Shown: positions 9,393 through 32,182 of the stretch, one piece after another
Layout: every line of letters starts with the position of its first letter
Position numbering within the stretch: position 1 is the first letter of the stretch
Assembly: GCA_016934315.1 (NCBI GenBank)
Contig: JAFGSY010000041.1
Location: forward strand, 1-32,182
Direction of reading: 5' to 3'
Length of the DNA: 32,182 nucleotides
DNA from: Candidatus Anaeroferrophillus wilburensis
Lineage (GTDB): Bacteria; Desulfobacterota; Anaeroferrophillalia; Anaeroferrophillales; Anaeroferrophillaceae
Translations under genes and position numbers: made by a program
Notes under the pieces: generated by a model
What the model was told of the DNA's origin: nothing
The model's input: the letters and a program-made list of their open reading frames with translations, nothing else
Databases searched by the model: none

Positions 9393-9407
9393 TATGTGTG
9401 GACTGCA

Positions 9408-10349: not shown

Positions 10350-10627
10350 AAAAGACCGGCATTTCCTGGCGTCAGATGCTCAATGGCGGTTTGGTGCTAA
10401 CCCTGGTGCTGACTATTTTTCTCTATGCATGGGTTCATTACCAGGTAGTTGAGCTGGGATATCAGCTGGTGGATGTGCGCCGCAGCTTGAGGGTTGATCA
10501 GCAGCAGAATAAAAAGTTGAAAACCGAGATTGCAACCCTGATGCAGCCGGCACGTCTGGAAAAAATTGCCCGCCAGAAGTGCGGCTTGCGGTATCCTGAT
10601 GCAGACCAGAAGGTAATGCTCAAATGA
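10346..10627 (+). CDS. ftsL: Cell division protein FtsL
   Basis: A 93-residue bitopic inner-membrane protein: a short cytoplasmic N-terminus, one membrane segment (about residues 14-30), then a periplasmic leucine-zipper-like coiled coil (about 31-70). The end is IARQKCGLRYPDADQKVML, similar to the tail of other FtsL proteins. FtsL forms a complex with FtsB and FtsQ and activates FtsW/FtsI. The sequence is poorly conserved in general, so the call rests on topology, size and position between rsmH and ftsI, with ATGA overlaps at both ends. Confidence 0.9.
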   Translation: MKKTGISWRQMLNGGLVLTLVLTIFLYAWVHYQVVELGYQLVDVRRSLRVDQQQNKKLKTEIATLMQPARLEKIARQKCGLRYPDADQKVMLK

Positions 10628-12618: not shown

Positions 12619-12683
12619 TTAATTCGTTCATCTGGTGTAATGAATGAGTCTGGATGGACAGATAAGACACGGGAAATGGTCGA

Positions 12684-15643: not shown

Positions 15644-16716
15644 TCTACCATCTTCTCTATCCGCTGCATAACCTGTGGGGTATCTTTAATGTTTTCAAAT
15701 ATATCTCTTTCAGGACTATTTATGCCAGCTTGACGGCATTGTTCCTGGCTTTTTATCTGGGGCCGAAGGTAATCAAGTGGTTGCGAAAACTCCAGCTTGG
15801 CCAAGTGATCCGCGAGGATGGGCCACAGTCACATCTGGACAAGGCCGGGACGCCGACAATGGGCGGTACCCTGATCCTTTTTTCGGTGGTGGTTTCAACC
15901 CTGCTCTGGGCAAACCTGGCCAATGGCTATATCTGGCTGGTCATTATGGTTGCCCTGAGCTTTGGGTTTATCGGTTTTATCGATGATTACCGGAAAATGG
16001 TCCATAAAAATGCCAAGGGGCTGTCGGCAAGAAAAAAACTTGGCCTGCAGCTTTTGGTGGGTGTCTTTTTTACCTGCTGTCTTTTTTTCATGTCATCCTA
16101 TCCTTCGACCCTGATGGTGCCCTTTTTTAAGCGCTTTGTTCCTGATCTTGGCTGGTGGTATATTCCTTTCGGTACCCTGGTGGTGGTTGGAGCCTCCAAC
16201 GCGGTCAACCTTACTGATGGCCTCGACGGCTTGGCCACCGGTCCGTCAATTATCTCCTTCAGCGTTTATCTGCTGTTTGCCTACCTGGCCGGGAACCTGA
16301 GATTAGCGGAGTATCTGCAGATTACCTATTTGCCCGGGGTCGGCGAATTGGCCATCTTCTGTGGCGCCATGGTGGGAGCGCTGTTGGGGTTCCTCTGGTT
16401 CAATACCTATCCGGCCGCCATCTTCATGGGTGATGTTGGTTCCCTCGCCCTGGGCAGCTGCCTGGGAGCGGTGGCGGTGATGACCAAACAGGAGATGGTG
16501 CTGCTTTTGGTGGGCGGTATTTTTGTCCTTGAAACCCTGTCCGTCATTATCCAGGTGCTTTCTTTCAAACTCATAGGAAAACGGGTTTTCCGGATGGCGC
16601 CGTTGCATCATCATTTTGAGCTAAAGGGCTGGGCGGAGCCCAAAGTTATTGTCAGGTTTTGGATTATCTCGATTATGCTGGCGCTGCTGGCTTTAAGTAC
16701 GCTTAAGCTGCGTTAG
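15640..16716 (+). CDS. mraY: Phospho-N-acetylmuramoyl-pentapeptide-transferase
   Basis: MraY transfers phospho-MurNAc-pentapeptide onto undecaprenyl phosphate to make lipid I at the inner face of the membrane. The 358-residue protein has ten hydrophobic segments and the key motifs. These are [11 protein letters not shown], the FIDDYRK aspartate pair, [15 protein letters not shown] with the catalytic Asp, [11 protein letters not shown] and the APLHHHFE histidine motif. Length and N-terminus match the proteobacterial type. It overlaps murF by 4 nt. Confidence 0.98.
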
Positions 16717-16737
16717 GGGTGATGGAGATACTTTACA

Positions 16738-16755
16738 GCAGAGAGATTTCTCTGC
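16738..16755 (+). other. Small hairpin between mraY and murD
   Basis: GCAGAGA (16738-16744) pairs perfectly with TCTCTGC (16749-16755) around a GATT loop. There is no T-run, so it is not a terminator. It lies in one of the few true spacers of the cluster and is followed by GGAGG. It could be an RNA stability or processing element. Confidence 0.4.
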
Positions 16756-16785
16756 GGAGGAATACGGCTGGGGCATTGCAGGGTA

Positions 16786-18267
16786 ATGGATAACAGAGGA
16801 ACAACAGCTGGTGTCATGGAACATCCCGGCAGCCTGAAAAAAGGTACAGAAAATCTGCCCCCTCTGCGCCTGCGGGATAAAAAAGTGCTGGTGGTGGGTT
16901 TGGGCATCAGCGGTGAAGCGGTAGCTTCCTTTCTCTGCCGGCAGGGGGCGCTGGTCTCCGTGTCTGATCATCGGCCGGCTGACGAGCTGGTAGACAGTAT
17001 CGGCCGCCTGCAGAGTCTGCCATTGCTTACGATTGAAACGGGTGGGCATTCTCAAGAACTGTTTCTCAGGCAGGATCTGATTGTCGTCAGTCCCGGCGTC
17101 CCTCTTGTCCTTGAGGTGATCAGCCAGGCTCGCAAAAAAGGTATTCCGGTTATTGGTGAGCTTGAGCTGGCTGGTAGATCTGTTTCCCTGCCCCTTATCG
17201 GCCTGACGGGGACCAACGGCAAGACCACCACGGTGACCCTTTTGGGTGAGCTGTTCGCCGCTGCCGGGTTTCATCCTTTTGTCGGCGGCAATATTGGTAC
17301 GCCGGCAATCGAAATGGCCCGGGACGACGCCGACTGGGATGTGGGGATTCTTGAATTGAGCAGTTTTCAGCTTGAAGGAATTGAGCAGTTTCGCCCCCAT
17401 GTGGGGATAATCCTCAACGTAACCCCTGACCATCAGGACCGCTATCCTAGCCATGAAGCCTATCTGCAAGCGAAGATGAAAATCATGCAATGCCAGGGGC
17501 GGGATGATTTTCTGTTGCTCAACAGAGATGATCTCCTGCTTGCCGATCAGTTACAGCTGCTGCATGAGCGCTGGTTGAGGGGCGAGTCGGTGCCCCGGCC
17601 GGTGTCTTTCAGCTGTCGAACCATGGTGGAAGACGGCGGCTGCTGTCTGGGAGGCAAGATTGTCTGCCATATATCCGGCAACGACGGCGGGCGTTCATGT
17701 ACCGTGCCACTGCCGGAAGTGCACATGCCGGGTGAGCATAATCGCAGTAATCTCCTGGCGGCCTTTCTGGCGGGTTTTCTCTATGGCCTTGATCCCCGGG
17801 TGATGCTGGCAACCATCAGCGCCTTCAAAGGCCTGCCCCATCGCCTGGAGTTTGTCGCCCGGGTGGCGGGCATTGAGTATGTCAATGACTCAAAAGCCAC
17901 CAACCTGGATGCGGTGGCCCGGGCGATCGACAGTTTTGATCAACCCATCGTGCTGCTGCTCGGCGGCCGGGACAAGGGGGCATCGTTCGGCGATTTGGCT
18001 GGCGTCATGGGCGGCCGGGTGCGGGATATTGTCCCCTTTGGTGAAGCAGCAGATCTGATTGCCCGCCAACTGCCTCACTTTTATGCCGGTGAGCAGGCAG
18101 CCAATCTCCGGGAGGCGGTCATCAAGGGCACCACGTTAGCCCATGCCGGTGATGTGGTCCTCCTGTCGCCCGGATGTGCGAGCTTTGATGAGTTTGCCAG
18201 TTACCGCCATCGGGGGGATTGCTTTAAATCGGTGGTCAGCGAACTTGCCTCGGGAGCCCTGCCATGA
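16786..18267 (+). CDS. murD: UDP-MurNAc-L-alanine:D-glutamate ligase
   Basis: MurD adds D-glutamate to UDP-MurNAc-L-Ala in the cytosol. The 493-residue protein has the Rossmann-like N-domain (KKVLVVGLGISGEAVA), VVSPGVPL, the P-loop GLTGTNGKTTT and GGNIGTPAIE. The centre has LELSSFQLEG and ILNVTPDHQDRY; the C-terminal domain has LPHRLEFVA, YVNDSKATNLDAV and LLLGGRDKG. The N-terminus is about 25 residues longer than the usual start. ATG 16786 has only a close AGGGT and ATG 16816 has none, so the start is uncertain. It is 69 bases after mraY and overlaps ftsW by ATGA. Confidence 0.96.
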   Translation: MDNRGTTAGVMEHPGSLKKGTENLPPLRLRDKKVLVVGLGISGEAVASFLCRQGALVSVSDHRPADELVDSIGRLQSLPLLTIETGGHSQELFLRQDLIVVSPGVPLVLEVISQARKKGIPVIGELELAGRSVSLPLIGLTGTNGKTTTVTLLGELFAAAGFHPFVGGNIGTPAIEMARDDADWDVGILELSSFQLEGIEQFRPHVGIILNVTPDHQDRYPSHEAYLQAKMKIMQCQGRDDFLLLNRDDLLLADQLQLLHERWLRGESVPRPVSFSCRTMVEDGGCCLGGKIVCHISGNDGGRSCTVPLPEVHMPGEHNRSNLLAAFLAGFLYGLDPRVMLATISAFKGLPHRLEFVARVAGIEYVNDSKATNLDAVARAIDSFDQPIVLLLGGRDKGASFGDLAGVMGGRVRDIVPFGEAADLIARQLPHFYAGEQAANLREAVIKGTTLAHAGDVVLLSPGCASFDEFASYRHRGDCFKSVVSELASGALP

Positions 18268-19382
18268 AGCGTATGGAGATTATCCTCCTGAGTACCGTTG
18301 CCTGCCTTCTGACCATTGGGGTTTTGATGATTTTCAGCGCCAGTGCCGTGTTGGCCAAAAACACCTATAACAACAGCTACTATTTCCTCTTCAAACAGCT
18401 GGCTTTTTTGGTTCTGGGCGGTGCCAGTATGATGATCTGCTGGTTGCTGGATTATCATTGGTGGGAAAAACTATCGGTGCCGCTGATGGCGTTCAGCGCA
18501 ATCCTGCTGATTATGGTTCTTATCCCGGGGATTGGCCATCGTGCCGGGGGGGCAAGTCGATGGTTGCAGACGCCTTTCTTCTCCATTCAGCCGGCAGAGT
18601 GTTGCAAGTTGGTGATGGTGATCTACCTGGGGGCTTATCTGACCAGGAAGGAGGCGCGCATGCGGGAGTTCAAGCGTGGCCTGCTGCCGCCGCTGCTGAT
18701 TTTGGGTATGTTTGTTGGTTTGCTGATGCTGGAACCTGATTTTGGCACTTCGGTGATCATCCTTGTTCTGGCGTTTATGCTGAGCTGGATTGGCGGCGCT
18801 CGTGTTGTCCATCTGCTTTCCCTGGCCCTGCTGGCTCTGCCGGGTCTGGCTCTGGCTGTAGTTTTTTCTCCTTATCGGATGAAGCGGATTCTCACCTTTC
18901 TTGATCCCTGGCAGGATCCCACCGGCAACGGTTTCCAGGTTATCCAATCAATGATAGCCCTGGGGGTTGGTGGGATCAACGGGGTTGGTTTGGGCAACGG
19001 CAAACAGAAACTGTTTTTCCTCCCTGAACCCCATACCGATTTTATTGTGGCCGCCATTGGTGAAGAGATGGGGTTTATGGGGATCTGCTTCCTGATTCTG
19101 GTGCTGCTGATATTCCTCTTTGTCGGTCTGAGGATTGCACTTGCCAGCAAGGATCGTTTTGGTTTGCTGCTGGCTACCGGGCTGACTTTTCTCATTGTCC
19201 TCCAGATGCTGGTCAATATGGGGGTGGCTATGGGGGTGCTACCCACCAAGGGGTTGACCTATCCCTTCTTGAGTTATGGTGGGACCTCCTTGCTAATCAG
19301 TATGACAGCGGTGGGTATTTTGTTGAATATCTGCCGGCAGCCGGAAACTGGCCGTGATCGGCAGCGTTTTTTCAGGAAATAA
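18264..19382 (+). CDS. ftsW: Septal peptidoglycan glycosyltransferase FtsW (SEDS family)
   Basis: FtsW polymerises lipid II into glycan strands at the septum, paired with FtsI. The 372-residue protein has about ten membrane segments and the SEDS signatures. These are FSASAVLA in the first segment, SRWLQTPFFSIQPAE, LMLEPDFGTS, the catalytic-loop block FLPEPHTDFIVAAIGEEMGF and LPTKGLTYPFLSYGGTSL. The short N-terminus puts the first helix almost at residue 6. The conserved Asp in the HTDF motif is present. It overlaps murD by 4 nt and ends 4 bases before murG. Confidence 0.95.
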   Translation: MKRMEIILLSTVACLLTIGVLMIFSASAVLAKNTYNNSYYFLFKQLAFLVLGGASMMICWLLDYHWWEKLSVPLMAFSAILLIMVLIPGIGHRAGGASRWLQTPFFSIQPAECCKLVMVIYLGAYLTRKEARMREFKRGLLPPLLILGMFVGLLMLEPDFGTSVIILVLAFMLSWIGGARVVHLLSLALLALPGLALAVVFSPYRMKRILTFLDPWQDPTGNGFQVIQSMIALGVGGINGVGLGNGKQKLFFLPEPHTDFIVAAIGEEMGFMGICFLILVLLIFLFVGLRIALASKDRFGLLLATGLTFLIVLQMLVNMGVAMGVLPTKGLTYPFLSYGGTSLLISMTAVGILLNICRQPETGRDRQRFFRK

Positions 19383-19386
19383 ATTC

Positions 19387-20517
19387 ATGAAACAGCCAAA
19401 GACAATTATGCTGGCCGGAGGTGGGACTGGAGGGCACCTGTTTCCCGGTATTGCCCTGGCCCAGGAATTCCGGCGGCGTTTTCCTGAGGTTATGATCGTT
19501 TTTGTCGGCACCCGGAAAGGGCTGGAAAGCAGGGTCATACCTCCCCTGGGCTACCGCCTGGCTTTTATGAACATCAGCGGCATGGTGGGCAAAGGGCTGC
19601 GAGAAAAACTGCGGGTTATGGGAGGGTTGCCGGCGGCTTTGATTCAGGCCCTGGTGTTCATAGTTCGTTATAAACCGGATTTGGTGATTGGCCTGGGTGG
19701 CTATGCCAGTGCTCCCATGCTGGTGGCCGCCCGTCTGGCCGCCATCCCGCTGGTGATCCAAGAACAGAATGCCTTTCCCGGGGTGGTAAATCGGCTTCTG
19801 GCTCCTTTGGCAGCAACGGTTTTTGTCGCCTTTGAAGAAGCCAGAAAGCATCTCTATAGCCGGAAAATTATTAATTGTGGCAATCCGGTCCGCCTTGATT
19901 TTGCCACCCAGACTGAAACCGGCCGCCGAGGCAGACATGAATTGACTATGTTGGTTGTCGGTGGCAGTCAGGGAGCCCATTCTCTTAACACCGCGGTACC
20001 GGAGGCTTTGGTTCGCCTGCAGGCGGTCGGTGTGGTGCTGAAGGTTATTCATCAGACCGGCAGCCGTGATTATGCCCAAGTGCAGGCGGCTTACCAGGCG
20101 AATGGCATTGAGGCGGAGGTGGCGGAATTTTTTCCTGATATGGCACCGCAGTATGCTGCTGCCGATCTGGTTGTCAGTCGAGCGGGTGCCTTGACGTTGG
20201 CGGAACTGGCCCTCGTCGGCAGGCCGGCAATCCTGGTCCCCTATCCCCATGCCGCCCATGACCACCAGGATTTTAACGCCAGAGTTTTTATGGCTCGTGG
20301 AGCTGCCTTGATGATTCGCGACCATGAGTTAAACGGGGAGTCATTGGCCGAGATGCTGCAGCCTTTGCTGCAGGACCGCAGCCGTTTGCAGAGCATGCAG
20401 GCGGCCGCGGCAGCCCTAGGATGCCCGAGGGCAGTCGGCGAGATTGTCGATCGTTGTCTGGGGATACTGTCCTTGACAACGGGAGAGGTTTCGGAGGCGC
20501 GTGAAGATGCACCATAA
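19387..20517 (+). CDS. murG: Lipid II synthase (UDP-GlcNAc transferase MurG)
   Basis: MurG transfers GlcNAc from UDP-GlcNAc to lipid I, forming lipid II on the inner membrane surface. The 376-residue GT-B protein has the N-terminal AGGGTGGHLFPGIALA loop, FVGTRKGLESRVIP, IGLGGYASAPMLVAA, QEQNAFPGVVNR, the second-domain VVGGSQGAHSLN, and SRAGALTLAELALVGRPAILVPYPHAAHDHQ for UDP-GlcNAc binding. I chose ATG 19387 (AGGAAA upstream) rather than the open extension into ftsW. It overlaps murC by 11 nt. Confidence 0.97.
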   Translation: MKQPKTIMLAGGGTGGHLFPGIALAQEFRRRFPEVMIVFVGTRKGLESRVIPPLGYRLAFMNISGMVGKGLREKLRVMGGLPAALIQALVFIVRYKPDLVIGLGGYASAPMLVAARLAAIPLVIQEQNAFPGVVNRLLAPLAATVFVAFEEARKHLYSRKIINCGNPVRLDFATQTETGRRGRHELTMLVVGGSQGAHSLNTAVPEALVRLQAVGVVLKVIHQTGSRDYAQVQAAYQANGIEAEVAEFFPDMAPQYAAADLVVSRAGALTLAELALVGRPAILVPYPHAAHDHQDFNARVFMARGAALMIRDHELNGESLAEMLQPLLQDRSRLQSMQAAAAALGCPRAVGEIVDRCLGILSLTTGEVSEAREDAP

Positions 20518-21874
20518 GGTAAAAAGGATCCACTTTATCGGTATTGGCGGCATCGGAATGAGCGGGATCGCCGAAGTGCTGCTTAACCTTGGGTATCAGG
20601 TGACCGGCTCTGATCTACGACAAACCCCGATTACCGATCGCCTGGCGGAATTAGGGGCCGAAATCTATTTAGGGCATTCGCGGCAGCATGTGGGGGATGT
20701 GCAGGTGGTGGTTCGTTCGACCGCTGTAAAAAATGATAATCCTGAACTGGTTGAAGCGCTGGAGCGGGCGATCCCGGTTATTCCCCGGGCTGAAATGCTG
20801 GCAGAACTGATGCGGCTGAAATATGGCATTGCCGTAGCCGGAACCCACGGCAAAACCACCACGACCTCGATGATTGCCACTATGCTCAGCGGCACCGATC
20901 TGGATCCAACCATTGTTATTGGTGGTCGTCTGGATAGTCTGAAGAGCAATGCCCGCTTGGGACAGGGGGAAATCCTGGTTGCCGAGGCCGATGAAAGCGA
21001 CGGCTCCTTCATGGCGCTTTCACCGATTATCGCGGTGATTACCAATATTGATCGGGAGCATCTTGATCACTACCAGGGGGGTCTGGCGGAAATTGAGGAT
21101 ACGTTTGTCGCATTTGCCAATAAAGTGCCTTTTTACGGTTTGGTTATTGTCTGTCTTGATGATCCTCGGGTTCAGGAAATTATCCCGCGTCTCAGCCGCC
21201 GTTTGTGTACGTATGGTTTCAGCCCCCAGGCCGATTTTCAGGCCATTGATGTTCGCATAGAGGGCATGCACAGCTCTTTTACGGTGGTCAGCAATGATCA
21301 GGTTTTCGGGGAGATAACCATTGGTCTGCCAGGGCGCCATTATGTGCAGAATGCTCTGGCGGCAGTTGCTGCTGGTTTTGAACTGGGGCTCGATTTTGCC
21401 CTTATCCAGCGGAATCTTGAGATGTTTGCCGGTGTGCAGCGTCGGATGCAGGTTCTGGGGGAGTGTCGGGGAGCGCTGGTTATCGATGATTATGGCCACC
21501 ATCCAACCGAGATCAAGGTTACTCTGGCGGCGTTGCGCCAGGCTTTTCCCGGTCGGCGGTTGCTGGTGGTTTTCCAGCCGCATCGCTATACCAGGACCCA
21601 GCATCTGTTCCATGAATTTTTGGTTGCTTTCAATGAGGCGGATGAATTGCTGGTCAGCGATATCTACCCGGCCGGTGAATCACCCATTGCCGGGGTCAGT
21701 GGCGAGCATCTGGCCGATGAAATTCGCCATCACGGTCACAAAAATGTCCACTATCGTTCTGATCATCAAGGTATCCTTGACTATCTGGCTGAGCATGTCC
21801 AGGAGAACTACGTGGTCATTACCTTTGGCGCCGGCGACATTACCAGGGTAGCGCATGCTCTGGCCGGTTCATAA
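20507..21874 (+). CDS. murC: UDP-MurNAc:L-alanine ligase
   Basis: MurC adds the first amino acid, L-alanine, to UDP-MurNAc. The 455-residue protein has HFIGIGGIGMSGIAEVL at the N-terminus, VVRSTAV and the P-loop GTHGKTTTTS. EADESDGSF, NIDREHLDHY and the C-terminal IDDYGHHPTEI, FQPHRYTRT and DIYPAGE follow. Two starts compete: GTG 20501 lies only 3 bases after GGAGG, while ATG 20507 lies 9 bases after it, so I chose the ATG. It overlaps the end of murG. Downstream a 98-base spacer precedes the lipoprotein gene. Confidence 0.97.
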   Translation: MHHKVKRIHFIGIGGIGMSGIAEVLLNLGYQVTGSDLRQTPITDRLAELGAEIYLGHSRQHVGDVQVVVRSTAVKNDNPELVEALERAIPVIPRAEMLAELMRLKYGIAVAGTHGKTTTTSMIATMLSGTDLDPTIVIGGRLDSLKSNARLGQGEILVAEADESDGSFMALSPIIAVITNIDREHLDHYQGGLAEIEDTFVAFANKVPFYGLVIVCLDDPRVQEIIPRLSRRLCTYGFSPQADFQAIDVRIEGMHSSFTVVSNDQVFGEITIGLPGRHYVQNALAAVAAGFELGLDFALIQRNLEMFAGVQRRMQVLGECRGALVIDDYGHHPTEIKVTLAALRQAFPGRRLLVVFQPHRYTRTQHLFHEFLVAFNEADELLVSDIYPAGESPIAGVSGEHLADEIRHHGHKNVHYRSDHQGILDYLAEHVQENYVVITFGAGDITRVAHALAGS

Positions 21875-21972
21875 AAGATGACCTGGACGAAGGGAACATG
21901 CTTGTCGAGGAATATGTTTTCGCGGAGGGCAGCAAAACCGAATTTTTTACGTTCCAGCAGAGGAGGAGAATA

Positions 21973-22299
21973 ATGCATCAGGAAGGGAACAAGATAACAA
22001 AAGCCGGAGTCGTACTGGTTATGGTGTTGATGGTTTTTTATGTGGCTGCCTGTGCTACCCCCGGCGGACGCTCAGCGGGGCAGGTGCTGGATGACAGTGC
22101 CATTGCGACGACCATAAAAACCAAGCTGGTCAGTATGCCGGGTGTCAGGTCGCTGGGCATCGATGTTGATGTTCATCAGGGGGAGGTAGTGCTTTCCGGC
22201 CGTGTTCACAGTGAAAATGAGGAGGCTCGGGTTCTTGATGCCACGCGAAATGTTCAGGGGGTGCGGAAAGTTACCAGTATGTTGAAGATTATTCCCTGA
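21973..22299 (+). CDS. BON-domain lipoprotein inserted in the dcw cluster
   Basis: A 108-residue lipoprotein: a basic N-terminus, a hydrophobic stretch (VVLVMVLMVFYVAAC) whose last residues form a lipobox, then a mature BON domain. The domain runs DSAIATTIKTKLVSMPGVRS, IDVDVHQGEVVLSGRVHS and VLDATRNVQGVRKVTSML, as in OsmY-like proteins. A strong GAGGAGGAG site lies 4 bases before ATG 21973. BON domains bind phospholipid or other envelope surfaces; the role here is not known. Its stop overlaps the murB start by one base (TGATG), so the two are translationally linked. Residues after the cysteine are ATP, with no Asp sorting signal, so outer-membrane sorting is expected if E. coli rules apply. 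Confidence 0.9.
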   Translation: MHQEGNKITKAGVVLVMVLMVFYVAACATPGGRSAGQVLDDSAIATTIKTKLVSMPGVRSLGIDVDVHQGEVVLSGRVHSENEEARVLDATRNVQGVRKVTSMLKIIP

Positions 22300-23285
22300 T
22301 GCAGGCTGTTAATCAGGTCGTACTTGCTGATGAGATCATTGCCGGGCTGGTCCGGGAGTTTGGCAGCCAGGTGCAGCAGGATGTGCCGTTGGCCGGTCGA
22401 ACGACGATGAAAGTCGGGGGTATTGCCCGCCTCTATCTTACGCCACACGGAACTTCCCAACTGCAAGGCATGCTGGCCAGGTTGAAACAGCTCTCAGTGC
22501 CGGTTCTGGTGCTTGGCGGCGGTGCCAATGTGGTGGTTGCTGATGAGGGGGTAAGCCGGGCGGCGGTGATTAGTGTGATGGAACATATGAACAATATTGC
22601 CGATATCCGGATTCAGCGTGGGCAGGTGAGCGTCACCGCGGAGGCTGGCGTACGATTAACCACCCTGGTGCAGTTCTGCCAGCAGCAGGGTTGGGGTGGG
22701 ATGGAATTTCTTGCCGGTATCCCCGGTTCCGTCGGTGGCGCGGCGGTTATGAACGCCGGGGCCTTTGGTCGGGAGTTTGGTGATCTGCTCATGGCCATGA
22801 GTTGTTGTGACTATGATGGACAGTTGTCTTGCTGTTCCAGAAACGAGTTGTTCATGACCTATCGTGATGGGGGGGTGGCACCGGATCAGGTGGTCGTTTC
22901 GGTGTGCTTGTTGCTGCAACCGGCATTACCGGAAACTATCGCCGCCAAGATGGCTGAGTACCGTGAAATTCGCCGCCAGCGGCAGCCGTGGGGAGTCCCT
23001 TCAGCTGGCTCCGTGTTTAAAAATCCTCCGGGCGATTATGCCGGGCGTCTCATTGAAGCGGCTGGCTGTCGTGGCCGCCGCCAGGGCAAGGCCCGGGTTG
23101 CTGATCAGCATGCCAATTTCATCACGACTGAACCGGGAGCGACGGCAGCAGATGTCTTTCGGCTTATCGATGAGGTGAAAATGCTGGTTTACCGGCAATT
23201 TGGCGTTTTGTTGGAAGAGGAAATTATCCGGTTTAGTGATGATCATTGTCTCGTTGTTTCTGACGTCCCGCAAGAGGAGATGTGA
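22299..23285 (+). CDS. murB: UDP-N-acetylenolpyruvoylglucosamine reductase
   Basis: MurB uses NADPH and FAD to reduce UDP-GlcNAc-enolpyruvate to UDP-MurNAc. The 328-residue protein begins with the FAD-domain TTMKVGGIARLYLTP and VLGGGANVVVADEGV, then MEFLAGIPGSVGGAAVMNAGA. The catalytic set is present: Tyr-Arg in MTYRDGGV, the proton-donor Ser in SAGSVFKNP, and a Glu near the C-terminus (VLLEEEI). QHANFITTEPGATA is also typical. ATG 22299 overlaps the lipoprotein stop, and its own stop overlaps the ddl start by one base. Confidence 0.97.
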   Translation: MQAVNQVVLADEIIAGLVREFGSQVQQDVPLAGRTTMKVGGIARLYLTPHGTSQLQGMLARLKQLSVPVLVLGGGANVVVADEGVSRAAVISVMEHMNNIADIRIQRGQVSVTAEAGVRLTTLVQFCQQQGWGGMEFLAGIPGSVGGAAVMNAGAFGREFGDLLMAMSCCDYDGQLSCCSRNELFMTYRDGGVAPDQVVVSVCLLLQPALPETIAAKMAEYREIRRQRQPWGVPSAGSVFKNPPGDYAGRLIEAAGCRGRRQGKARVADQHANFITTEPGATAADVFRLIDEVKMLVYRQFGVLLEEEIIRFSDDHCLVVSDVPQEEM

Positions 23286-24226
23286 TGAACTTTTCCCTTG
23301 ACCAGCTGAAAAAGAAAAAGATTGGAGTCCTTTTGGGAGGCTTGTCAGCCGAACGGGAAATTTCTTTAAAAACCGGTGCTGCGATACAATCGGCCTTGGA
23401 ACGGAGCGGTTATCGTACCGTGGCGATTGACGTTGGTCGTGATCTCCCATTCCGTCTGCGTGAGGAGCAGATTGACGTTGCGTTCATTGCCCTCCATGGT
23501 CGCTATGGTGAGGATGGTGTTGTCCAGGGGGTTTTGGAGCTGCTGCAGATTCCTTATACCGGTCCTGGCGTGATGGCCAGCAGTGTGGCGATGAATAAGC
23601 TGATAACCAAACATCTGCTGCGCAGTGCCGGAATTGCCACCCCCGCATATCTGTCCTGTCATGATCAGGTTGATGTGGTGCCTGATGCAGGGTCGCTGGG
23701 TTATCCGCTGGTGGTCAAGCCGGTCAGTGAAGGTTCCAGTCTGGGAGTTGCTATTGTAGAGCGGCATTCTGATCTGGCAGCGGCGATGGCCGGGGCTTTT
23801 CGCTATGAACGGGAGATCCTGCTGGAGCAGTATATCCCTGGCAGGGAAATTACCGCCTCTGTACTCAATGGAACCCCGTTGCCTCTCATTGAAATTTGCC
23901 CGGCCGCCGGTTTCTACAGCTATCAGGCAAAATATACGGCCGGAGAGACGGACTATCTGGTGCCGGCGCCACTTGCCCCGGTGTTGACCAGATCGATCCA
24001 GAGCCTGGCCCTGGCCAGCTGCCGGGTTACAGACTGTTGTCAAGGGGCTGTCCGGGTTGATTTCCGTCTCAGCCCTGATGCAAAAGCATATGTTATTGAA
24101 ATCAATACCATTCCTGGGATGACCGCCACCAGCTTGCTGCCCAAGGCGGCGGCAGCGGCCGGGATGGGATTTGAGGCTCTGATTGAAACAATCGTCTCCG
24201 GGGCGTCTTTAAAATGTAGGTCGTAG
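23285..24226 (+). CDS. ddl: D-alanine--D-alanine ligase
   Basis: Ddl joins two D-alanines with ATP for use by MurF. The 313-residue ATP-grasp protein has IGVLLGGLSAEREISLKTG, FIALHGRYGEDGVVQG, the second-domain LVVKPVSEGSSLGVAIV and LLEQYIPGREITASVL. The metal-binding region is VDFRLS ... VIEINTIPGMTATSLLP. I chose ATG 23285, with GAGGAG 5 bases upstream, over GTG 23282. It overlaps murB by one base and is 10 bases ahead of ftsQ. The position between murB and ftsQ is the classic dcw place. Confidence 0.97.
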   Translation: MNFSLDQLKKKKIGVLLGGLSAEREISLKTGAAIQSALERSGYRTVAIDVGRDLPFRLREEQIDVAFIALHGRYGEDGVVQGVLELLQIPYTGPGVMASSVAMNKLITKHLLRSAGIATPAYLSCHDQVDVVPDAGSLGYPLVVKPVSEGSSLGVAIVERHSDLAAAMAGAFRYEREILLEQYIPGREITASVLNGTPLPLIEICPAAGFYSYQAKYTAGETDYLVPAPLAPVLTRSIQSLALASCRVTDCCQGAVRVDFRLSPDAKAYVIEINTIPGMTATSLLPKAAAAAGMGFEALIETIVSGASLKCRS

Positions 24227-24236
24227 GGTATATCCT

Positions 24237-25085
24237 GTGGCTGAAAGCCGGAAAAAAAAGCTGGTCAATTCACGCCGGGAACTGAACCGTAGCCGCCGGC
24301 AGAAAAAGAAAAGAGAGTTCAGAACATGGGTTCCCAAGGCAGTTATAATACTGATGTTAGTGGGATGTTCCCTGCTGCTCTGGACCAAAAAGGCAGACTT
24401 TGCTGCCGGCATCAGGCAAGAGCTTCGTAATCGACAGCTGTTAACGGTAAAGGAGGTTGTTGTGGAAGGTCATTATCAAACAGTCAAAGATGATATTGTG
24501 CAGCAGTTGGAGGTGGACCCTGGCATGCTCCTGTTCGATGCCGACCTGTCACTCATGCGGGGACGGGTGGAACGGTTGCCCTATGTGCAGACGGCCCAGG
24601 TATGCCGGCAGTGGCCTGACAGGCTGATGGTATCAGTGGCTGAACGGGTTCCGGTTGCCATGGTCAACCTGGATGGTCTCTACTATGTAGATTGCCACGG
24701 ACAGATTTTCAAACGGGTGGAACAGGGGGAGGAAGTGGATCTGCCGGTGCTTACCGGCTTGAACACCGAGATGCTCCAGAAGAATCCTGAAGCTGGCCGA
24801 GCTATGCTGACCCTGGGGCTGGCGATGCTGGGCTGCTGGCAGGGGGAGGATGATTATGCCCAGGAAGGATTGTCGGAGATTCATCTTGATGACACCTTCG
24901 GCCTGACCATCTATACCCGTCGTCATGCATGGCAGGTTGAATTGGGGCTGGAAGCTTTTGGCGTCAAACTTCAACAGTGGTACAAGGTGGTGCAGTACCT
25001 GGGAACCGAAGGAAACCGGGCTCAGCGTTTTGACTGCCGCAGCAGTCATGCGGTGGTGGTTGGTTATCAAAGCGCTGTACAGTAA
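24237..25085 (+). CDS. ftsQ: Cell division protein FtsQ
   Basis: FtsQ is a bitopic inner-membrane protein that links FtsA/FtsZ-side and septal-synthesis proteins through FtsB/FtsL. The 282-residue protein has a very basic cytoplasmic N-terminus (about residues 5-29). A membrane segment follows at about 33-50, then a POTRA domain (about 69-137; VKEVVVEGHYQTVKDDIV, LPYVQTAQVCRQWPDRL). The beta-domain has VAMVNLDGLYYVDCHGQIF and LPVLTGL. The start is GTG 24237 with a weak ribosome site, which fits low FtsQ levels. It lies 24 bases ahead of ftsA. Confidence 0.95.
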   Translation: MAESRKKKLVNSRRELNRSRRQKKKREFRTWVPKAVIILMLVGCSLLLWTKKADFAAGIRQELRNRQLLTVKEVVVEGHYQTVKDDIVQQLEVDPGMLLFDADLSLMRGRVERLPYVQTAQVCRQWPDRLMVSVAERVPVAMVNLDGLYYVDCHGQIFKRVEQGEEVDLPVLTGLNTEMLQKNPEAGRAMLTLGLAMLGCWQGEDDYAQEGLSEIHLDDTFGLTIYTRRHAWQVELGLEAFGVKLQQWYKVVQYLGTEGNRAQRFDCRSSHAVVVGYQSAVQ

Positions 25086-25109
25086 CCGGCGCCAAGGATC
25101 GGGGGAACC

Positions 25110-26339
25110 ATGTCCAAAAATAATCAGGTGATCGTTGGGTTGGATATCGGCACGACGAAAATCTGTGCCATTGTCGGCAGGGTTACGGCCGATGAGGTGG
25201 AAATCATCGGGATCGGCACCCATCCGTCTGAAGGGCTGCGCAAGGGAGTGGTGGTCAATATTGACAGTACGGTTGAGTCAATCAAAAAAGCCATCCACGA
25301 AGCTGAAATGATGTCAGGCTCTGACATTAAGGCGGTGGTAACCGGGATTGCCGGGGCTCATATCAAAGGCTTTAACAGCCATGGGATCATCGGGGTAAAA
25401 GATCATGAAGTGTCAGCCAAGGATGTTGAAAAGGTCTTGGAAGCCGCCAAGGCAGTGGCCATTCCCCTGGATCGGGAAGTTGTGCATACCCTGGCCCAGG
25501 AGTTCATTATTGATGAGCAGGATGGGATCCGGGATCCGGTGGGGATGTCCGGGGTCCGTCTGGAAGTCAAAGTTCATATTGTTACTGCCGCCGTTGCTTC
25601 AGCCCAGAATATTGTTCGCTCCTGCAATAGGGCCGGGCTGGAGGTGGCCGACATCGTTCTGCAGCAGATTGCTTCCAGCGAAGCGGTGCTGACCGATGAA
25701 GAGAAAGAGCTGGGAGTTGTAGTTATCGATATCGGCGGTGGGACGACGGATATTGCCGTGTTTGCCAATGGCAGTATCTGCTATACCGCCTCCCTGCCTT
25801 TGGGGGGCAACCAGTTGACCAGCGATATTGCCGTTGGCCTGCGCACTCCGGTGACGGCTGCTGAAAAAATCAAGAAAAACTATGGTTGTGCCATGATCTC
25901 CCTGATTGATCATAATGATACTATCGAGGTTCCCAGTGTCGGCGGTCGGCAGCCGCGGGTGTTGTCACGGCAGATTCTCGGAGAAATTATTGAGCCTCGG
26001 ATGGAGGAGATCTTGGAACTGGTGAAGCGGGAACTCTACAAATCGGGTTTTTATGATCAGGTGGTTTCCGGGGTGGTGCTCACCGGCGGTTCATCGTTGA
26101 TGCCCGGGGTTGAAGAACTGGCGGAGATGGTTTTTGAGATGCAGGCAAGGGCTGGCATTCCCCAGCATGTCGGGGGGCTTTTGGATATTGTCAGAAGTCC
26201 CATGTATGCCACCGGTGTCGGTCTGTTGATCCATGGCTCAAAAACGTTGGAGTCGTCGGGGCGGTTCAGTACCAGTGATAAAAATTTATTCAACAAACTT
26301 TATACACGAATGAAAAATTGGTTTGCCGAATTTTTTTAA
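25110..26339 (+). CDS. ftsA: Cell division protein FtsA
   Basis: FtsA is an actin-like ATPase that tethers FtsZ to the membrane. The 409-residue protein has the phosphate-1 motif [16 protein letters not shown], the 1C subdomain ([18 protein letters not shown] to the VHIVTAAVA strand), the phosphate-2 motif [16 protein letters not shown] and the adenosine motif [14 protein letters not shown]-terminal amphipathic helix ([17 protein letters not shown]) is the membrane-targeting sequence. GGGGGAA lies 3 bases before the ATG. It is 22 bases upstream of ftsZ. Confidence 0.98.
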
Positions 26340-26361
26340 GCGAGCGAGGGGAGGAAAAATC

Positions 26362-27531
26362 ATGTTTGAATTTGACGAGCGGTCACGGTTGCAGGCCAAT
26401 ATCAAGGTGATTGGTATCGGCGGGGGTGGCAGTAACGCGGTGAACAGCATGATCAATGCCGGGGTTCAGGGGGTTGATTTTGTCGTCGCCAATACCGATG
26501 CCCAGGCACTGGAGGCATCACCGGCAGCAATCAAGCTGCAGCTTGGCTCCAGGCTGACCCGCGGGTTGGGTGCTGGTGCGAACCCGGAGGTGGGACGCAA
26601 TGCCACCATCGAAGATACGGAAAAAATTTCCGAGCTTTTGACCGGGGCGGACATGGTATTTATCACTGCCGGGATGGGCGGCGGCACCGGGACCGGCGGC
26701 GCCCCGGTGGTGGCCAAGCTGGCCAAGGAGTTTGGTGCCCTGGCGGTTGCGGTGGTCACTAAACCGTTCAGTTTCGAAGGCAGGAAACGGCTGCAGCAAG
26801 CCGAGGACGGGTTGGCAGAATTGCGGGAAAGCGTCGATGCCCTGATAACCATTCCCAACCAACGTCTGCTGAATATTGTTGGCAAGAATACCTCAATGGT
26901 GGAAGCCTTCCAGAAAGCAGATGAGGTTCTGGTCCAGGCGGTGCGCAGTATTTCCGACTTGATCAACGTTCATGGCTTAATCAACCTTGACTTTCAGGAT
27001 GTTAAAACGGTTATGACCAATACCGGTCTGGCTCTCATGGGAACCGGGATCGCCAGCGGCGAAAATCGGGCAGTGGAAGCTGCTCAGCAGGCGGTGGCGT
27101 CACCGTTGCTGGAGGATATAAGCATTCAGGGTGCCAAGGGCATTCTGATCAATATTACTGCCGGCAGCCAGTTGACCCTCTTCGAAGTGAGTGAAGCTTC
27201 AACCCTGATCCAGGAAGAAGCCCACGAGGATGCAAACATTATTTTCGGTGCGGTACTGGACGAATCGATGGGCGATGACATCAGGGTGACGGTCATTGCC
27301 ACTGGTTTTGAGCCGATTCGCGGGATCAAAGGGCCGGGCCTGGGGCGTAAATACCATCCCGTGTCTCCCCGCCGGGATCTTGACCGGCCGGCATTCCAGA
27401 CCCGGACCGCTGCCAGAGAGCGCCAAGAAATTGTCCGGACGGTGAAAAAAGTTGTCGGAGCCGACAGTGATGCTGATTTTGAGCTGGAAGATTATGATTT
27501 TCCGACCTTTCTCCGGCGGCAGTTGGATTAA
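26362..27531 (+). CDS. ftsZ: Cell division GTPase FtsZ
   Basis: FtsZ polymerises into the cytokinetic ring. The 389-residue tubulin-fold protein has [17 protein letters not shown], the tubulin signature GGGTGTG (107-113) and the T7-loop [11 protein letters not shown] (208-218) that completes the GTPase site. A variable linker follows, and a conserved C-terminal peptide ([13 protein letters not shown]) binds FtsA and other partners. I chose ATG 26362, behind GGGGAGGA, over the in-frame extension into ftsA. It closes the cluster; no obvious terminator directly follows. Confidence 0.98.
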
Positions 27532-27813: not shown

Positions 27814-27844
27814 GTCCATGAGGACCAGAAAGGGAGTTTTTCAC

Positions 27845-29269
27845 TTGCACTCAGCTTACAGTCCTCCTTTTACTCTTTTTCTGCCCCAGGGCAATCACCC
27901 TTCGTCCATCCGCTGCCAGGAAATTTTACGGGAGCTGTCCGGCAAAAGATTGGTATGTCTTGGCTGGTGGGGGACTCAGCAGGTTGTTGTCAAGGTTTTT
28001 CCCCGCCGCCGGCAGTCCAGGCGCTATTGGCAGCGGGAGGACCGGGGTGTCAGAGCACTGGCTGCGCGGGGAATCTTGACGCCGGAAATCCTTTATTCCG
28101 GTTCACTGGCTGAAGAGCAAGGTGATGTGGTGGTGCTCCCTTTTCTCGCCACGGGTATGACGGCGCTGCAGCTATGGCAAGAAGCTGCCGATGATGATGC
28201 CCGCCAGCGGCTTTTGGGTGCGATGGTGGTGCTTTTCGCCCATCATCACCAGCAGGGAGTATGTCAGAGAGATTTGCACCTGGGTAATTTCATGGCTGTG
28301 GGTGAAATGATCCACACTTTGGATGGTGCTGATATTGTTGTCAGTCGTAGAGAGGTGGGGATAAGAAAAGCATTGGCCAATCTGGCGCTTTTCTGGGCCC
28401 AACTGGACCCGGCATATGACCAGCTGGTTGATATCCTGTTCCCCGGCTATTGTCGGGCTAGGGGTTGGTCCTGCTCCGCGGTGCTTTGCCAGCAGCTGAA
28501 AAACCGTATTGCTGCCAGCCGGCGCTGGCGCCGGGAGAAGTATCTCAAAAAGATTTTCCGTGACTGCAGTGCTGTTGTCCGCTGCCGGGATACCGGACGC
28601 TTGATCCTTTGCAGCCGGCGCTATTATACTCCGCCAGTACGCGATTTTCTTATGGATCCCGATCCCTGGCTGTACCATTCCGCAACGCGGTTGCTTAAAG
28701 ATGGCAATTCAAGCACCGTAGCCACGGTGGTGGTTGATGGCCATCCTTTGGTGGTGAAACGCTATAACAGCAAGGGCTTTATTCATGGGATAAAGAGGGC
28801 ATTTCGCCGAACGCGGGCAGCCCGCTCCTGGCGCAATGCTCATCTGCTGGATTTTTATGGCATTAATACCCCCGAGCCGGTGGCACTGATTGAACGGCAA
28901 CGATTGGCGGTACGCCTGCCTGCCTATTATGTTGCGGCATTGGCTGACGGTATTTTGGCCAGTGATTATTTTGCGGTGGCAGCCGTTTCCGATGAGCTGA
29001 GGCATATGGCTGCCAAAGTGGCGAGCGTGATAAAAACAATGCATGACCAAAGGATCAGTCATGGGGATCTGAAAGCCAGTAATATTGTCCTGACTGCTCA
29101 TGGTCCGGCTCTTATGGACCTCGATGACATGCAGCAGCACCGCAGCGTGGCCGGTTTTGCAAAAGCGGCACGGCGGGATGTGGAGCGGTTCTTGCGCAAC
29201 TGGGAAAACTATCCTGCCGTCGCTCAACTTTTCAGCTCCCTGATGAAAGGGAAGGAAGCGAGATCATGA
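27845..29269 (+). CDS. Tandem LPS/Kdo-kinase-like protein (two kinase domains)
   Basis: A 474-residue cytoplasmic protein with two fused kinase-like lobes of the WaaP/KdkA/InaA type. Counted from TTG 27845, the first has a VVVKVF strand (Lys about 50), then the catalytic loop QRDLHLGNF (about 141-149) and LDGADI. The second has LVVKRYN (Lys about 305), HGDLKASNIVL (about 406-416) and LMDLDDM as a DFG-like motif. I chose TTG 27845 because AAAGGGAG lies 8 bases before it, while ATG 27818 sits 4 bases after a strong hairpin. Such kinases phosphorylate Kdo or heptose of the LPS inner core. The ATGA overlap with the carbamoyltransferase suggests they work on the same glycan. Confidence 0.82.
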   Translation: MHSAYSPPFTLFLPQGNHPSSIRCQEILRELSGKRLVCLGWWGTQQVVVKVFPRRRQSRRYWQREDRGVRALAARGILTPEILYSGSLAEEQGDVVVLPFLATGMTALQLWQEAADDDARQRLLGAMVVLFAHHHQQGVCQRDLHLGNFMAVGEMIHTLDGADIVVSRREVGIRKALANLALFWAQLDPAYDQLVDILFPGYCRARGWSCSAVLCQQLKNRIAASRRWRREKYLKKIFRDCSAVVRCRDTGRLILCSRRYYTPPVRDFLMDPDPWLYHSATRLLKDGNSSTVATVVVDGHPLVVKRYNSKGFIHGIKRAFRRTRAARSWRNAHLLDFYGINTPEPVALIERQRLAVRLPAYYVAALADGILASDYFAVAAVSDELRHMAAKVASVIKTMHDQRISHGDLKASNIVLTAHGPALMDLDDMQQHRSVAGFAKAARRDVERFLRNWENYPAVAQLFSSLMKGKEARS

Positions 29270-30996
29270 TTGTACTAGGTTTGTCGGGAGCGGTTGGCCA
29301 TGATCCTTCAGCGGCGCTGTTTGTTGATGGTCGGCTGGTTGCGGCGGCCGAGGAGGAAAGGTTCCTGCGCGATAAGCATGCCAAAAATACAATGCCCTAC
29401 GAGGCGACTAAATTTTGCATCGAAACAGCCGGAATAGGTCCCCATGAGATTGACGCAGTGGCATTTCCCTATGCCAAAATCAGCTTGGTGGGTCCGGGCC
29501 GCTGGCATTATGCCCGCCGCTACTGGTATGCTCCTGACCGTGCATTGACCGTTCTATTCAACGGCAACCGGCGCTACCGGCGCAACATGAAGCGGGTCCG
29601 TAAGCTTCTCGATGACTTCCGGATAGACTACAACCGCATCCGTTTTTTTCCGGTTGAGCATCATCTGAGCCATGCCAGTAGTGCCTACCATCTCAGTGGT
29701 TTCAAGGAAAAGTGTGCGGTACTCAGCATCGATGGCAAAGGGGAGTATGCGACCACCTTCTTTGGCTATGGAGAACAGGGAAAAATTCATAAGATCAAGG
29801 AATTCTACGATCCTGATTCGCTGGGTGGTTTTTACGGGGCAATAACAGAATACCTTGGTTTTGACATGCTTGATGGTGAATTCAAGGTGATGGGCATGGC
29901 TCCCTATGGTGATCCGGAGCGGTTTGATTTTTCCCGCCTGATTGCCCATGATGAGCAAGATTTCCGGGTCAACACCAAGCTGGTCAACGTTATCGGTTCC
30001 AGGCGTTACAAAGAAGGTGGCAAAGGCTATTACTTCAGCAAGGAACTGGTACGCTGGTTGGGGCCCAAGCGCCAGGGGGACGAAATCGATGATCCCTACA
30101 TTGATTATGCTGCCAGTACCCAGAAACTGCTTGAAGATGTGGCCCTGCCCCTCATTGAGCATTACCTCGGGGATATTATCCGGGAAACCGGGAAAATCTG
30201 CTATGCCGGCGGTGTGGCACTCAATGTCAAACTCAACCAGAAGATCATGGAGATGGAGCATGTAAAAGAACTCTTTGTCCAGCCGGCGGCCAGTGATGCC
30301 GGTACGGCAATCGGCGCCGCCTCCTACGTCGCCAATCTGCTGGGAGATACGGTGCAGAAGCTTGAGCATGTCTATTTGGGGCCCTCTTATACGACCCAAC
30401 AGTGTATTGACGCCTGCAAAGCGCATGAACGGCAGCCTGCCTGGGAGGTGGTGGCCGATCCCTCCCTGACCGGTGCGCAGCTGCTGGCCGAGGGCAACCC
30501 GGTGGCCTGGTTTCAGGGGCGGATGGAATTTGGCCCTCGCGCCTTGGGCAACCGGAGCATCCTGGGAGATCCCAGTCACCGTGGGGTGGCTGACCGGATC
30601 AATGCCCAGATCAAGTATCGGGAGCGCTGGCGACCATTCTGCCCCAGTATGTTGGACCGGGTTGCACCGGAAATTCTGCAGACCGACCACCCGTCTCCCT
30701 ATATGACCTTTACCTTTACGGTTGCCGGGCAGTGGAAGGACAGAATTCCTGAAGTGGTGCATGAAGATGGGACAGCGAGGGCCCAGGTGGTTACCAGGGA
30801 AAGCAACCCGCGCTACTATCGTCTGATAGAGGAGTTGGCAAGGCTGCGCGGTGTGCCGGTAGTGCTGAATACGTCGTTGAACCGCCGTGGGGAGCCGATG
30901 ATCTGTTCGCCCACCGATGCGTTGCAGATGTTTTTTGGTTCTGATCTGGAATATCTGATCATGGAAGAGGTGCTGGTCCGCAAAACCCCCACCTAG
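29266..30996 (+). CDS. O-carbamoyltransferase, NodU/CmcH family
   Basis: This family transfers a carbamoyl group from carbamoyl phosphate via carbamoyl-adenylate to a hydroxyl of a sugar or antibiotic. The 576-residue protein has the N-terminal Kae1-like ATPase part. It starts with LGLSGAVGHDPSAALFVDG, AAAEEERF, VEHHLSHASSAY, LSIDGKGEYATTF and FKVMGMAPYG. It continues through YAGGVALNVKLNQKI and AASDAGTAIGAA. The C-terminal domain has WFQGRMEFGPRALGNRSIL, KYRERWRPFCPSML and LNTSLNRRGEP. All are hallmarks of TobZ-like enzymes. Linked to LPS-kinase domains, it probably carbamoylates an LPS core sugar; a role in a secondary metabolite is less likely. Confidence 0.93.
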   Translation: MIVLGLSGAVGHDPSAALFVDGRLVAAAEEERFLRDKHAKNTMPYEATKFCIETAGIGPHEIDAVAFPYAKISLVGPGRWHYARRYWYAPDRALTVLFNGNRRYRRNMKRVRKLLDDFRIDYNRIRFFPVEHHLSHASSAYHLSGFKEKCAVLSIDGKGEYATTFFGYGEQGKIHKIKEFYDPDSLGGFYGAITEYLGFDMLDGEFKVMGMAPYGDPERFDFSRLIAHDEQDFRVNTKLVNVIGSRRYKEGGKGYYFSKELVRWLGPKRQGDEIDDPYIDYAASTQKLLEDVALPLIEHYLGDIIRETGKICYAGGVALNVKLNQKIMEMEHVKELFVQPAASDAGTAIGAASYVANLLGDTVQKLEHVYLGPSYTTQQCIDACKAHERQPAWEVVADPSLTGAQLLAEGNPVAWFQGRMEFGPRALGNRSILGDPSHRGVADRINAQIKYRERWRPFCPSMLDRVAPEILQTDHPSPYMTFTFTVAGQWKDRIPEVVHEDGTARAQVVTRESNPRYYRLIEELARLRGVPVVLNTSLNRRGEPMICSPTDALQMFFGSDLEYLIMEEVLVRKTPT

Positions 30997-31063
30997 GGGC
31001 AGTGTGTAGGCTTTTGGGGTGCTGTGGCATATGTTTCACGGCCGCAGCCGACAGGAGAGTGTC

Positions 31064-31093
31064 TTGCATTAACCTGTTAAAAATCCATATATT
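31064..31093 (+). promoter_or_regulatory. Possible promoter of the rpfF-like gene
   Basis: TATATT at 31088-31093 (5 of 6 -10 bases) follows TTGCAT (31064-31069, weak -35) at 18 bases in a very AT-rich stretch. It lies about 90 bases before the start codon, which suits a gene transcribed apart from the carbamoyltransferase. Confidence 0.3.
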
Positions 31094-31182
31094 TATATTA
31101 TTTATTATTTTGTCAGTGGTGCTCGGTGTATAGAAAAATAAAGCCGTCAGCAAAAAAACAATGGATAACCAGGGAGTAACGA

Positions 31183-32182
31183 ATGAATAGTGAGTTTTAC
31201 CAAATATTTCGTGACTATCAGGAAATTTCTATCAGATATGATGCCTGCCATCGTGCCATCTGGTGTTACTACAATCCAGCACCCCGTCCTTGTTTTTCCA
31301 TGACCGTCTTGCGTGAAGCATTGGAGATTCAGCATTCGATTATCAATTACTTCAAGCACCGGCCGGAAAAAAGCGAAGTTCCTATCCGTTATCTTATCCA
31401 GGCATCGCAAGTGCCGGGTGTTTTCAATTTGGGTGGAGATTTAGGTTTATTTATTAAATTAATTGCCGAAAGAGATCATAATAAGCTGCTGGAGTATGCC
31501 AAAGGTTGTGTTGATATCTGCTACCTCAATGCCGTAAATCTGCACTTGCCGATTACTACCATTTCTTTGGTTGAAGGGGCTGCTTTGGGAGGTGGTTTTG
31601 AATCCGCGTTGGCCGGCAACATTCTGATTGCAACCAGAAATGCTGAAATGGGTTTTCCCGAAATACGTTTTAACCTGTTTCCCGGAATGGGAGCCTACAG
31701 CCTGTTAGCCCGCACAATGGGCATTACGGTTGCTGAAACGATGATTACCAGTGGGAAAATCTATAGTGCACAGGAACTGCATGACCTGGGGGTGGTTCGT
31801 GTCCTGGCTGAGGGAGGCAAAGGGCGTGAAGCTGTTGAAACATTCATGAAACAGCACAGCCGTGTATACAATGGCATGCAGGCAATTCAGTCGGCCAGGC
31901 AGCGTTACCATCCGATAGCGTACGAAGAACTTATGGATATTACTAAAATCTGGGTTGATGCGGCTTTAAGACTTGAACCCCATGATGTACGGATGATGGA
32001 GCGTATCGTAAGAACCCAGGAACAGAAATTTTCCAAAGCTAAACAAAGATCGGTTCCTCCTCTCTTGCGAACAAAGCAGGACCGCCGGTTTGTTTCGGTC
32101 AAAACTGCTTTCCCGCTGGTGGATTGGTCCGGAGAAAAGGTATTGTTTGACCGGCGGAGAAATGTTGATCGGCGTCTGACAC
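31183..32182 (+). CDS. rpfF: RpfF-like enoyl-CoA hydratase/thioesterase (DSF-type signal synthase), partial
   Basis: The frame opens at ATG 31183 (AGGGAG 5 bases upstream) and runs past the right edge; 333 codons are visible. It is a crotonase-fold protein with the RpfF-specific motifs GVFNLGGDLGLF, EGAALGGGFESALA and MGFPEIRFNLFPGMGAYSLLA. The two glutamates equivalent to the catalytic pair of Xanthomonas RpfF (Glu141 and Glu161) are present. RpfF makes cis-2-unsaturated fatty acids (DSF) from acyl-ACP. The visible part already exceeds the Xanthomonas length of about 289 residues. It carries an extension from about residue 290, basic and arginine-rich (KQDRRF ... FDRRRNVDRRL). G+C and codon use look lower than in the dcw genes. 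Another crotonase-like hydrolase is the main alternative. Confidence 0.85.
   Translation, partial: MNSEFYQIFRDYQEISIRYDACHRAIWCYYNPAPRPCFSMTVLREALEIQHSIINYFKHRPEKSEVPIRYLIQASQVPGVFNLGGDLGLFIKLIAERDHNKLLEYAKGCVDICYLNAVNLHLPITTISLVEGAALGGGFESALAGNILIATRNAEMGFPEIRFNLFPGMGAYSLLARTMGITVAETMITSGKIYSAQELHDLGVVRVLAEGGKGREAVETFMKQHSRVYNGMQAIQSARQRYHPIAYEELMDITKIWVDAALRLEPHDVRMMERIVRTQEQKFSKAKQRSVPPLLRTKQDRRFVSVKTAFPLVDWSGEKVLFDRRRNVDRRLT

Follow-up and report, generated by a model that had tools for sequence, protein, structure and literature searches.

The last gene on a contig of Candidatus Anaeroferrophillus wilburensis raises the question of whether a fatty-acid signal of the DSF type is made in this lineage and, if so, which protein receives it. 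Most known cases of DSF signalling come from pathogens of plants and humans and from Leptospirillum, and two core routes of reception are described for it, through RpfC/RpfG or through RpfR. The window, i.e. the whole stretch of DNA analysed, is the complete contig C41 of this genome (G000; 32182 bp), so the truncation of its last open reading frame is the end of the assembly.

Genomic setting

The window belongs to a MAG-like assembly of 52 contigs. The closest named relative, at 69% identity, is isolate AUK234 of Candidatus Tharpella (L015, the same as G021:C24), a member of the same order, and the window genome is a Desulfobacterota-related relative of Candidatus Tharpella, in agreement with what the sequence-only reading had supposed. 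Its further guess of a sulfate-reducing lineage does not fit: the Tharpellota are described as a deep branch of the Desulfobacterota that lives in hydrothermal sediment, oxidation of long-chain fatty acids is predicted for them, and sulfate reduction is reported to be absent from their MAGs (PMC9213671). Contigs end in or near rpfF in several assemblies, be it at their ends (G000:C41, G005:C165, G351:C3) or at their starts (G018:C181, G144:C149, G298:C3).

The rpfF region is preceded by a dcw-type cluster (window positions 9396-27531) that includes mraW, ftsI, Mur ligases, mraY, ftsW, murB, ftsA and others. Between this cluster and rpfF lie two genes on the plus strand, both outside the proposed system. 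The first (27818..29269) encodes a double kinase-like protein of 483 aa, an unusual arrangement in which an APH-like half is followed by a Kdo/WaaP-like half; the second, the direct upstream neighbour (29266..30996), encodes a NodU-type carbamoyltransferase. What the earlier description called LPS-core genes comes down to these two, the Kdo/WaaP-kinase-like protein and the NodU-type carbamoyltransferase, and both stand behind a peptidoglycan and cell-division cluster. The genes upstream of rpfF vary among relatives. An A+T-rich gap of 186 bases (30997..31182, plus strand) separates rpfF from the carbamoyltransferase gene and contains a ribosome-binding-like AGGGAG (31171-31176, plus strand), and rpfF probably has its own transcription start. 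A promoter scan of the gap gave no match above chance, and an Rfam search of the window returned nothing.

RpfF-like genes occur in other surroundings as well. On a conjugative plasmid of Methylibium petroleiphilum (RPME01; L073, 4947-5897) such a gene is flanked by genes for a ferritin and for an iron-containing redox enzyme, with no annotated sensor nearby. An IncK2/Z plasmid of E. coli (NZ_CP060058.1; L075, 4890-5723) encodes a crotonase that resembles RpfF distantly, its gene sitting behind those for an ABC transporter, an FtsX-like permease and outer-membrane lipoprotein sorting.

A member of the RpfF family

The rpfF-like gene (31183..32181, plus strand) starts with ATG and is open at the contig end, with 333 residues visible and 334 plus a stop codon when contig C2 is included. 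Full-length relatives at 54-69% identity, together with the preserved reading frame, rule out a chance open reading frame. All three motifs named from the sequence are present in the visible residues, namely GVFNLGGDL (residues 79-87), ALGGGFE (134-140) and FPEIRFNLFPGMGAYS (158-173). Seven further crotonases encoded by this genome served as controls. With the NCBIfam profile NF006452/PRK08788 the protein scores 368.7 bits (cut-off 177), compared with 401 bits for the RpfF of B. cenocepacia, a proven BDSF synthase, and at most 75 bits for the crotonases of its own genome. The RpfF equivalog profile NF053515 gives 207 bits against a cut-off of 550, but the proven Burkholderia protein reaches only 186; the cut-off is therefore an unfair test beyond Xanthomonas-type RpfF and was dropped as a membership threshold. 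Judged by the B. cenocepacia control on both profiles, the window protein resembles RpfF about as closely as a proven member of the family does.

Searches of the PDB with phmmer point the same way. The top matches are BcRpfF (5fus, 6dgn), XccRpfF (3m6m) and 7zq7, at about 1e-46 or better, and the next crotonase follows at only 6e-17. Identity is 35-38% to proven RpfF proteins versus 16-24% to the crotonases of the same genome. In the tree the RpfF-like rows stand apart from all seven of these (support 100/100), the branch between them measuring 2.96 changes per column, so that the window protein falls outside the ordinary crotonases. Its own branch has ten rows (87/100) and also includes Candidatus Tharpella, MAGs of Desulfobulbaceae and one MAG of the Campylobacterota; the branch order within the RpfF groups is poorly resolved. 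A structure predicted from a ten-row alignment had a pLDDT of 44, and no structural argument is drawn from it.

In Xcc RpfF, Glu141 and Glu161 are catalytic and Met170 and Trp258 line the substrate pocket (PMC9864630). By alignment (3m6m numbering) they correspond in the window to Glu140 (codon 31600..31602), Glu160 (31660..31662), Met169 (31687..31689) and Trp257 (31951..31953), all on the plus strand, and the four residues are kept in 27/27 RpfF-like rows. The catalytic pair that the sequence-only reading had relied upon is indeed in place, but it is not diagnostic of RpfF: four of the seven control crotonases carry it too, and the pair alone is thus without deciding power. The Met170 and Trp258 equivalents occur in none of the seven. 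With the PRK08788 score, the tree and the Met/Trp pocket residues in agreement, the choice of an RpfF-type synthase over a general crotonase has held up, and on these comparisons the protein is almost certainly a member of the RpfF family and not an ordinary enoyl-CoA hydratase.

The branch is further set apart by a C-terminal tail (residues 294-333; 32062..32181, plus strand) of the form RTKQDRRF...FPL.DWSGE...DRR..DRR, which is confined to this part of the RpfF family and shows paired Arg motifs and eleven invariant positions across the branch. Among 59 related genomes the tail was found only in the seven that hold both rpfF and the sensor gene described below. It is also present in the Campylobacterota rpfF, and is thus not strictly bound to the sensor. 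One might guess that it docks RpfF to the membrane or to a receptor.

The gene beyond the contig end

The sequence-only reading had asked whether an RpfC/RpfG-like pair follows rpfF; extension of the contig leads instead to a membrane PAS-GGDEF-EAL protein. Its gene lies in the same genome at the end of contig C2 (G000:C2:23269-25608, minus strand), with 237 bases between its start and the end of the contig, and encodes a protein of 779 aa that is the ortholog of the rpfF neighbour in relatives (68% identity). The reverse complement of C2 starts GACACATTGA and the window ends ...CGTCTGACAC; the two contigs share five bases, GACAC, and the joined frame reads R-L-T-H-stop, giving a protein end ...DRRLTH where relatives have DRRLLH, DRRLVH or DRRLFH. 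Five bases alone are weak evidence, but since the join restores both the reading frame and a conserved ending, it is very likely that C41 and C2 adjoin, with rpfF followed by the sensor gene on one strand.

The putative sensor has six predicted hydrophobic membrane helices in its first ~190 residues, followed by PAS, GGDEF and EAL domains. The PAS_9 match scores 26.5, just under the gathering score of 27, and lies above it in relatives. In the complete sensors the motifs GGDEF, EALLRW (EVLLRW in L019) and DDFGTGYSS are intact. For the catalytic half, the closest solved structure is the GGDEF-EAL part of PA0575 (RmcA; 5m3c), at 45% identity; the comparison spans this half and not the sensor domains, and the structure model of the protein (a modest pLDDT of 59) was used only to name the nearest catalytic-half structures.

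The protein thus resembles RpfR in its PAS-GGDEF-EAL order and intact catalytic motifs. RpfR of B. cenocepacia and Cronobacter turicensis, however, starts with an RpfF-binding FI domain, is convergent with rpfF, and uses four PAS residues to hold the carboxylate of the fatty acid (PMC6361424). The FI domain is absent from the window genome's sensor, where the six hydrophobic helices occupy its place, and the residues S169, N172, Y183 and R187 are unmatched in an alignment with B. cenocepacia RpfR, albeit one that is uncertain across the divergent PAS domain. On both counts the protein is not an RpfR. An RpfC can be dismissed as well: the sensor has no kinase parts, a profile comparison of its N-terminus with the input domain of RpfC shows no similarity (hhalign E 0.5), and it lacks the residues R15, D17, S18, E19 and Q22 (RxDSExxQ) that Xcc RpfC needs for DSF sensing (PMC5391125). 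A search of the whole genome for RpfC returned, as its best matches, kinase domains only, with the input domain uncovered.

The membrane domain has homologues elsewhere. It is homologous to that of EAL proteins whose genes adjoin rpfF in Methylobacterium and Sphingomonas (hhalign E 3e-6 over 161 columns), which is suggestive only, two sequences having been compared and the domain being found on paralogues too. More distant versions of it are found on GGDEF-EAL paralogues, and genomes that lack rpfF have them as well.

Pairing of rpfF and the sensor gene across genomes

The two genes are adjacent on the same strand at seven further loci (L026, L027, L028, L016, L017, L018 and L019), and the same-strand pair is seen at contig edges in G005 and G018. 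Within the order, seven of the 22 genomes hold both genes and 15 hold neither (Fisher p = 6e-6, uncorrected for kinship). At first rpfF was found in 5/22 genomes and the sensor membrane domain (E < 1e-60) in 7/22; in G005 and G018 the 3' end of rpfF lies directly before the sensor gene at the contig end, and both were counted as holding the pair. G016 retains both genes on different contigs, with a terminator-like T run after its rpfF. The pair is present in Desulfobulbaceae MAGs too. At E < 1e-25 the membrane domain is confined, out of 395 genomes of Desulfobacterota, to five of this order and two others. Two Campylobacterota MAGs possess an rpfF of the window's branch, and a close sensor is missing from them. 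Their tailed rpfF (L020, 2219-3199; L024, 1-504) is followed by a HAD-type hydrolase gene in L020 and by one of equal size in L024. The co-occurrence of rpfF and the sensor gene may in part go back to their transfer together as neighbours.

Canonical DSF genes in other Desulfobacterota

The window genome is not the only case in the phylum, other families holding a canonical rpfF-rpfC(-rpfG) set. Eight more Desulfobacterota genomes, seven from one family and one from another, encode RpfF at 40-52% identity. The gene is convergent with that of a membrane HisKA-HATPase-REC-Hpt kinase in L030, L056, L057, L058 and L061 and, at the contig end, in L059. The N-terminus of this kinase retains the residues required for DSF sensing in Xcc RpfC, reading RPDSEHEQ or a close variant, with S replaced by T in L058. 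An RpfG-like REC-HD gene stands beside rpfC in L058 and in a MAG of the Proteobacteria (L021). An apparent RpfF fusion of 1036 aa in L055 proved false: a stretch of N precedes a reading frame in which no domain was matched. A literature search of partial coverage found no description of rpfF-rpfC(-rpfG) in Desulfobacterota, nothing was found on RpfF in Deltaproteobacteria, and the titles and abstracts retrieved for RpfF with sulfate-reducing bacteria did not treat such a system.

A possible signalling route and its alternatives

By analogy with the proven enzymes, the window RpfF probably makes a DSF-type signal, i.e. a cis-2-unsaturated fatty acid. Position and co-occurrence point to the membrane GGDEF-EAL protein as the likely receptor, and the reading that we favour on balance, from sequence and gene order, is a DSF-type synthase paired with a membrane c-di-GMP protein in a third receptor layout. 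RpfF is known to make free cis-2 fatty acid from 3-hydroxyacyl-ACP and to have thioesterase activity on acyl-ACPs (PMC4504480). In the window organism it would dehydrate 3-hydroxyacyl-ACP drawn from fatty-acid synthesis to cis-2-enoyl-ACP and would then hydrolyse the thioester to release the free signal; the fatty acid may build up in or near the membrane, upon which the sensor would alter the cellular c-di-GMP level. We infer that sensing runs through the membrane domain and not through a PAS pocket like that of RpfR, and whether c-di-GMP would rise or fall is likewise a matter of inference. A broader proposal, tentative and with slightly less than an even chance of being right, is that of a third class of DSF receptor, in which a membrane sensor domain fused to (PAS-)GGDEF-EAL, with neither an FI domain nor the RpfC motif, reads fatty acid in the bilayer. 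Such a class would accompany rpfF in Tharpellales, Desulfobulbaceae and, by homology of the membrane domain, Alphaproteobacteria, and the tail of the Desulfobacterota branch may tie the synthase to the membrane or to the receptor.

The alternative that survives best, though still unlikely, grants a real DSF-type synthase and denies its neighbour the role of receptor: the GGDEF-EAL protein would sense redox state or membrane stress, the two genes would travel together, and the true sensor would be elsewhere or absent. The sensor is without a known DSF-binding motif, related membrane domains occur on paralogues without rpfF, and the Campylobacterota rpfF lacks a close sensor, all of which speaks for this reading. 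Against it stand the strict co-occurrence across the 22 genomes, the adjacency in two lineages and the retention of both genes in G016 where they are unlinked, as well as the fact that rpfF in Alphaproteobacteria again has GGDEF-EAL neighbours whose membrane domain is homologous; moreover, both described DSF receptor routes lead to c-di-GMP (PMC13220807). Less likely still is a crotonase-fold acyl-ACP thioesterase or dehydratase that serves membrane lipids or fatty-acid metabolism, with the c-di-GMP protein monitoring free fatty acids or the state of the membrane. It would be in keeping with the thioesterase activity of RpfF itself and with the fatty-acid oxidation predicted for Tharpellota, and the substrate is not fixed by sequence; yet the RpfF-specific Met/Trp pocket residues are retained, and members of the family adjoin signalling genes in several layouts (RpfC, RpfR, and membrane GGDEF-EAL in two groups).

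Mis-binning of the rpfF contig or of the sensor contig, which would make one of them foreign to the genome, is very improbable: the assembly is MAG-like and rpfF has a G+C content of 46% versus 53% for the window, but rpfF shares one unbroken contig with the dcw cluster, the end of C2 completes its reading frame, and the same genes are found in other genomes of the order. An ordinary beta-oxidation enoyl-CoA hydratase/isomerase resembling RpfF through chance motifs can hardly be the answer, for all that Pfam ECH_1 matches the protein and the glutamate pair is common to hydratases, given its greater identity to proven RpfF than to the crotonases of its own genome, the fully supported split in the tree and a PRK08788 score far above theirs.

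With the synthase and membrane-receptor pair as the preferred reading, what is new here is an rpfF partner layout that differs from both described types of DSF receptor. RpfF is now placed in Desulfobacterota of sediments and vents, where some families hold canonical RpfC and RpfG and others a membrane c-di-GMP enzyme of another kind. Should the proposed pairing be right, a fatty-acid signal would be received, quite simply, by a single membrane protein. This suggests that DSF-type signalling has a broader range and more forms than the two known from textbooks.

Comparison with known DSF systems

At the level of the synthase, Xcc RpfF (3m6m) and BcRpfF (5fus, 6dgn) belong to the same family and share the glutamate pair and the Met/Trp residues at the identities given above, but the window RpfF sits on a separate branch of the tree and bears an extra Arg-rich C-terminal tail of about 46 residues that is found in this branch only. 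The RpfF/RpfR system of Burkholderia cenocepacia and Cronobacter turicensis likewise sets an RpfF-family synthase beside a PAS-GGDEF-EAL protein with a c-di-GMP readout, the latter being proposed for the window pair. Unlike that system, the window pair has six membrane helices in place of the FI domain and co-directional genes, its sensor is without the PAS carboxylate residues, and its RpfF carries the additional tail. With RpfF/RpfC/RpfG of Xanthomonas and Leptospirillum it has in common an RpfF synthase, a membrane-embedded partner and, as proposed here, a c-di-GMP output; unlike that system, it has no histidine kinase, receiver, Hpt or HD-GYP partner and no RxDSExxQ motif. The remaining parallel is with Methylobacterium radiotolerans pMRAD01 and a plasmid of Sphingomonas parapaucimobilis, for whose rpfF-EAL pairs the papers found report no function. 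In both, rpfF lies beside a gene for a membrane-GGDEF-EAL protein with a homologous membrane domain. These pairs differ from that of the window in that their genes are convergent and their RpfF is only about 40% identical to the window's, and the PAS-like segment of their EAL proteins has diverged in one of the two and is lacking from the second.
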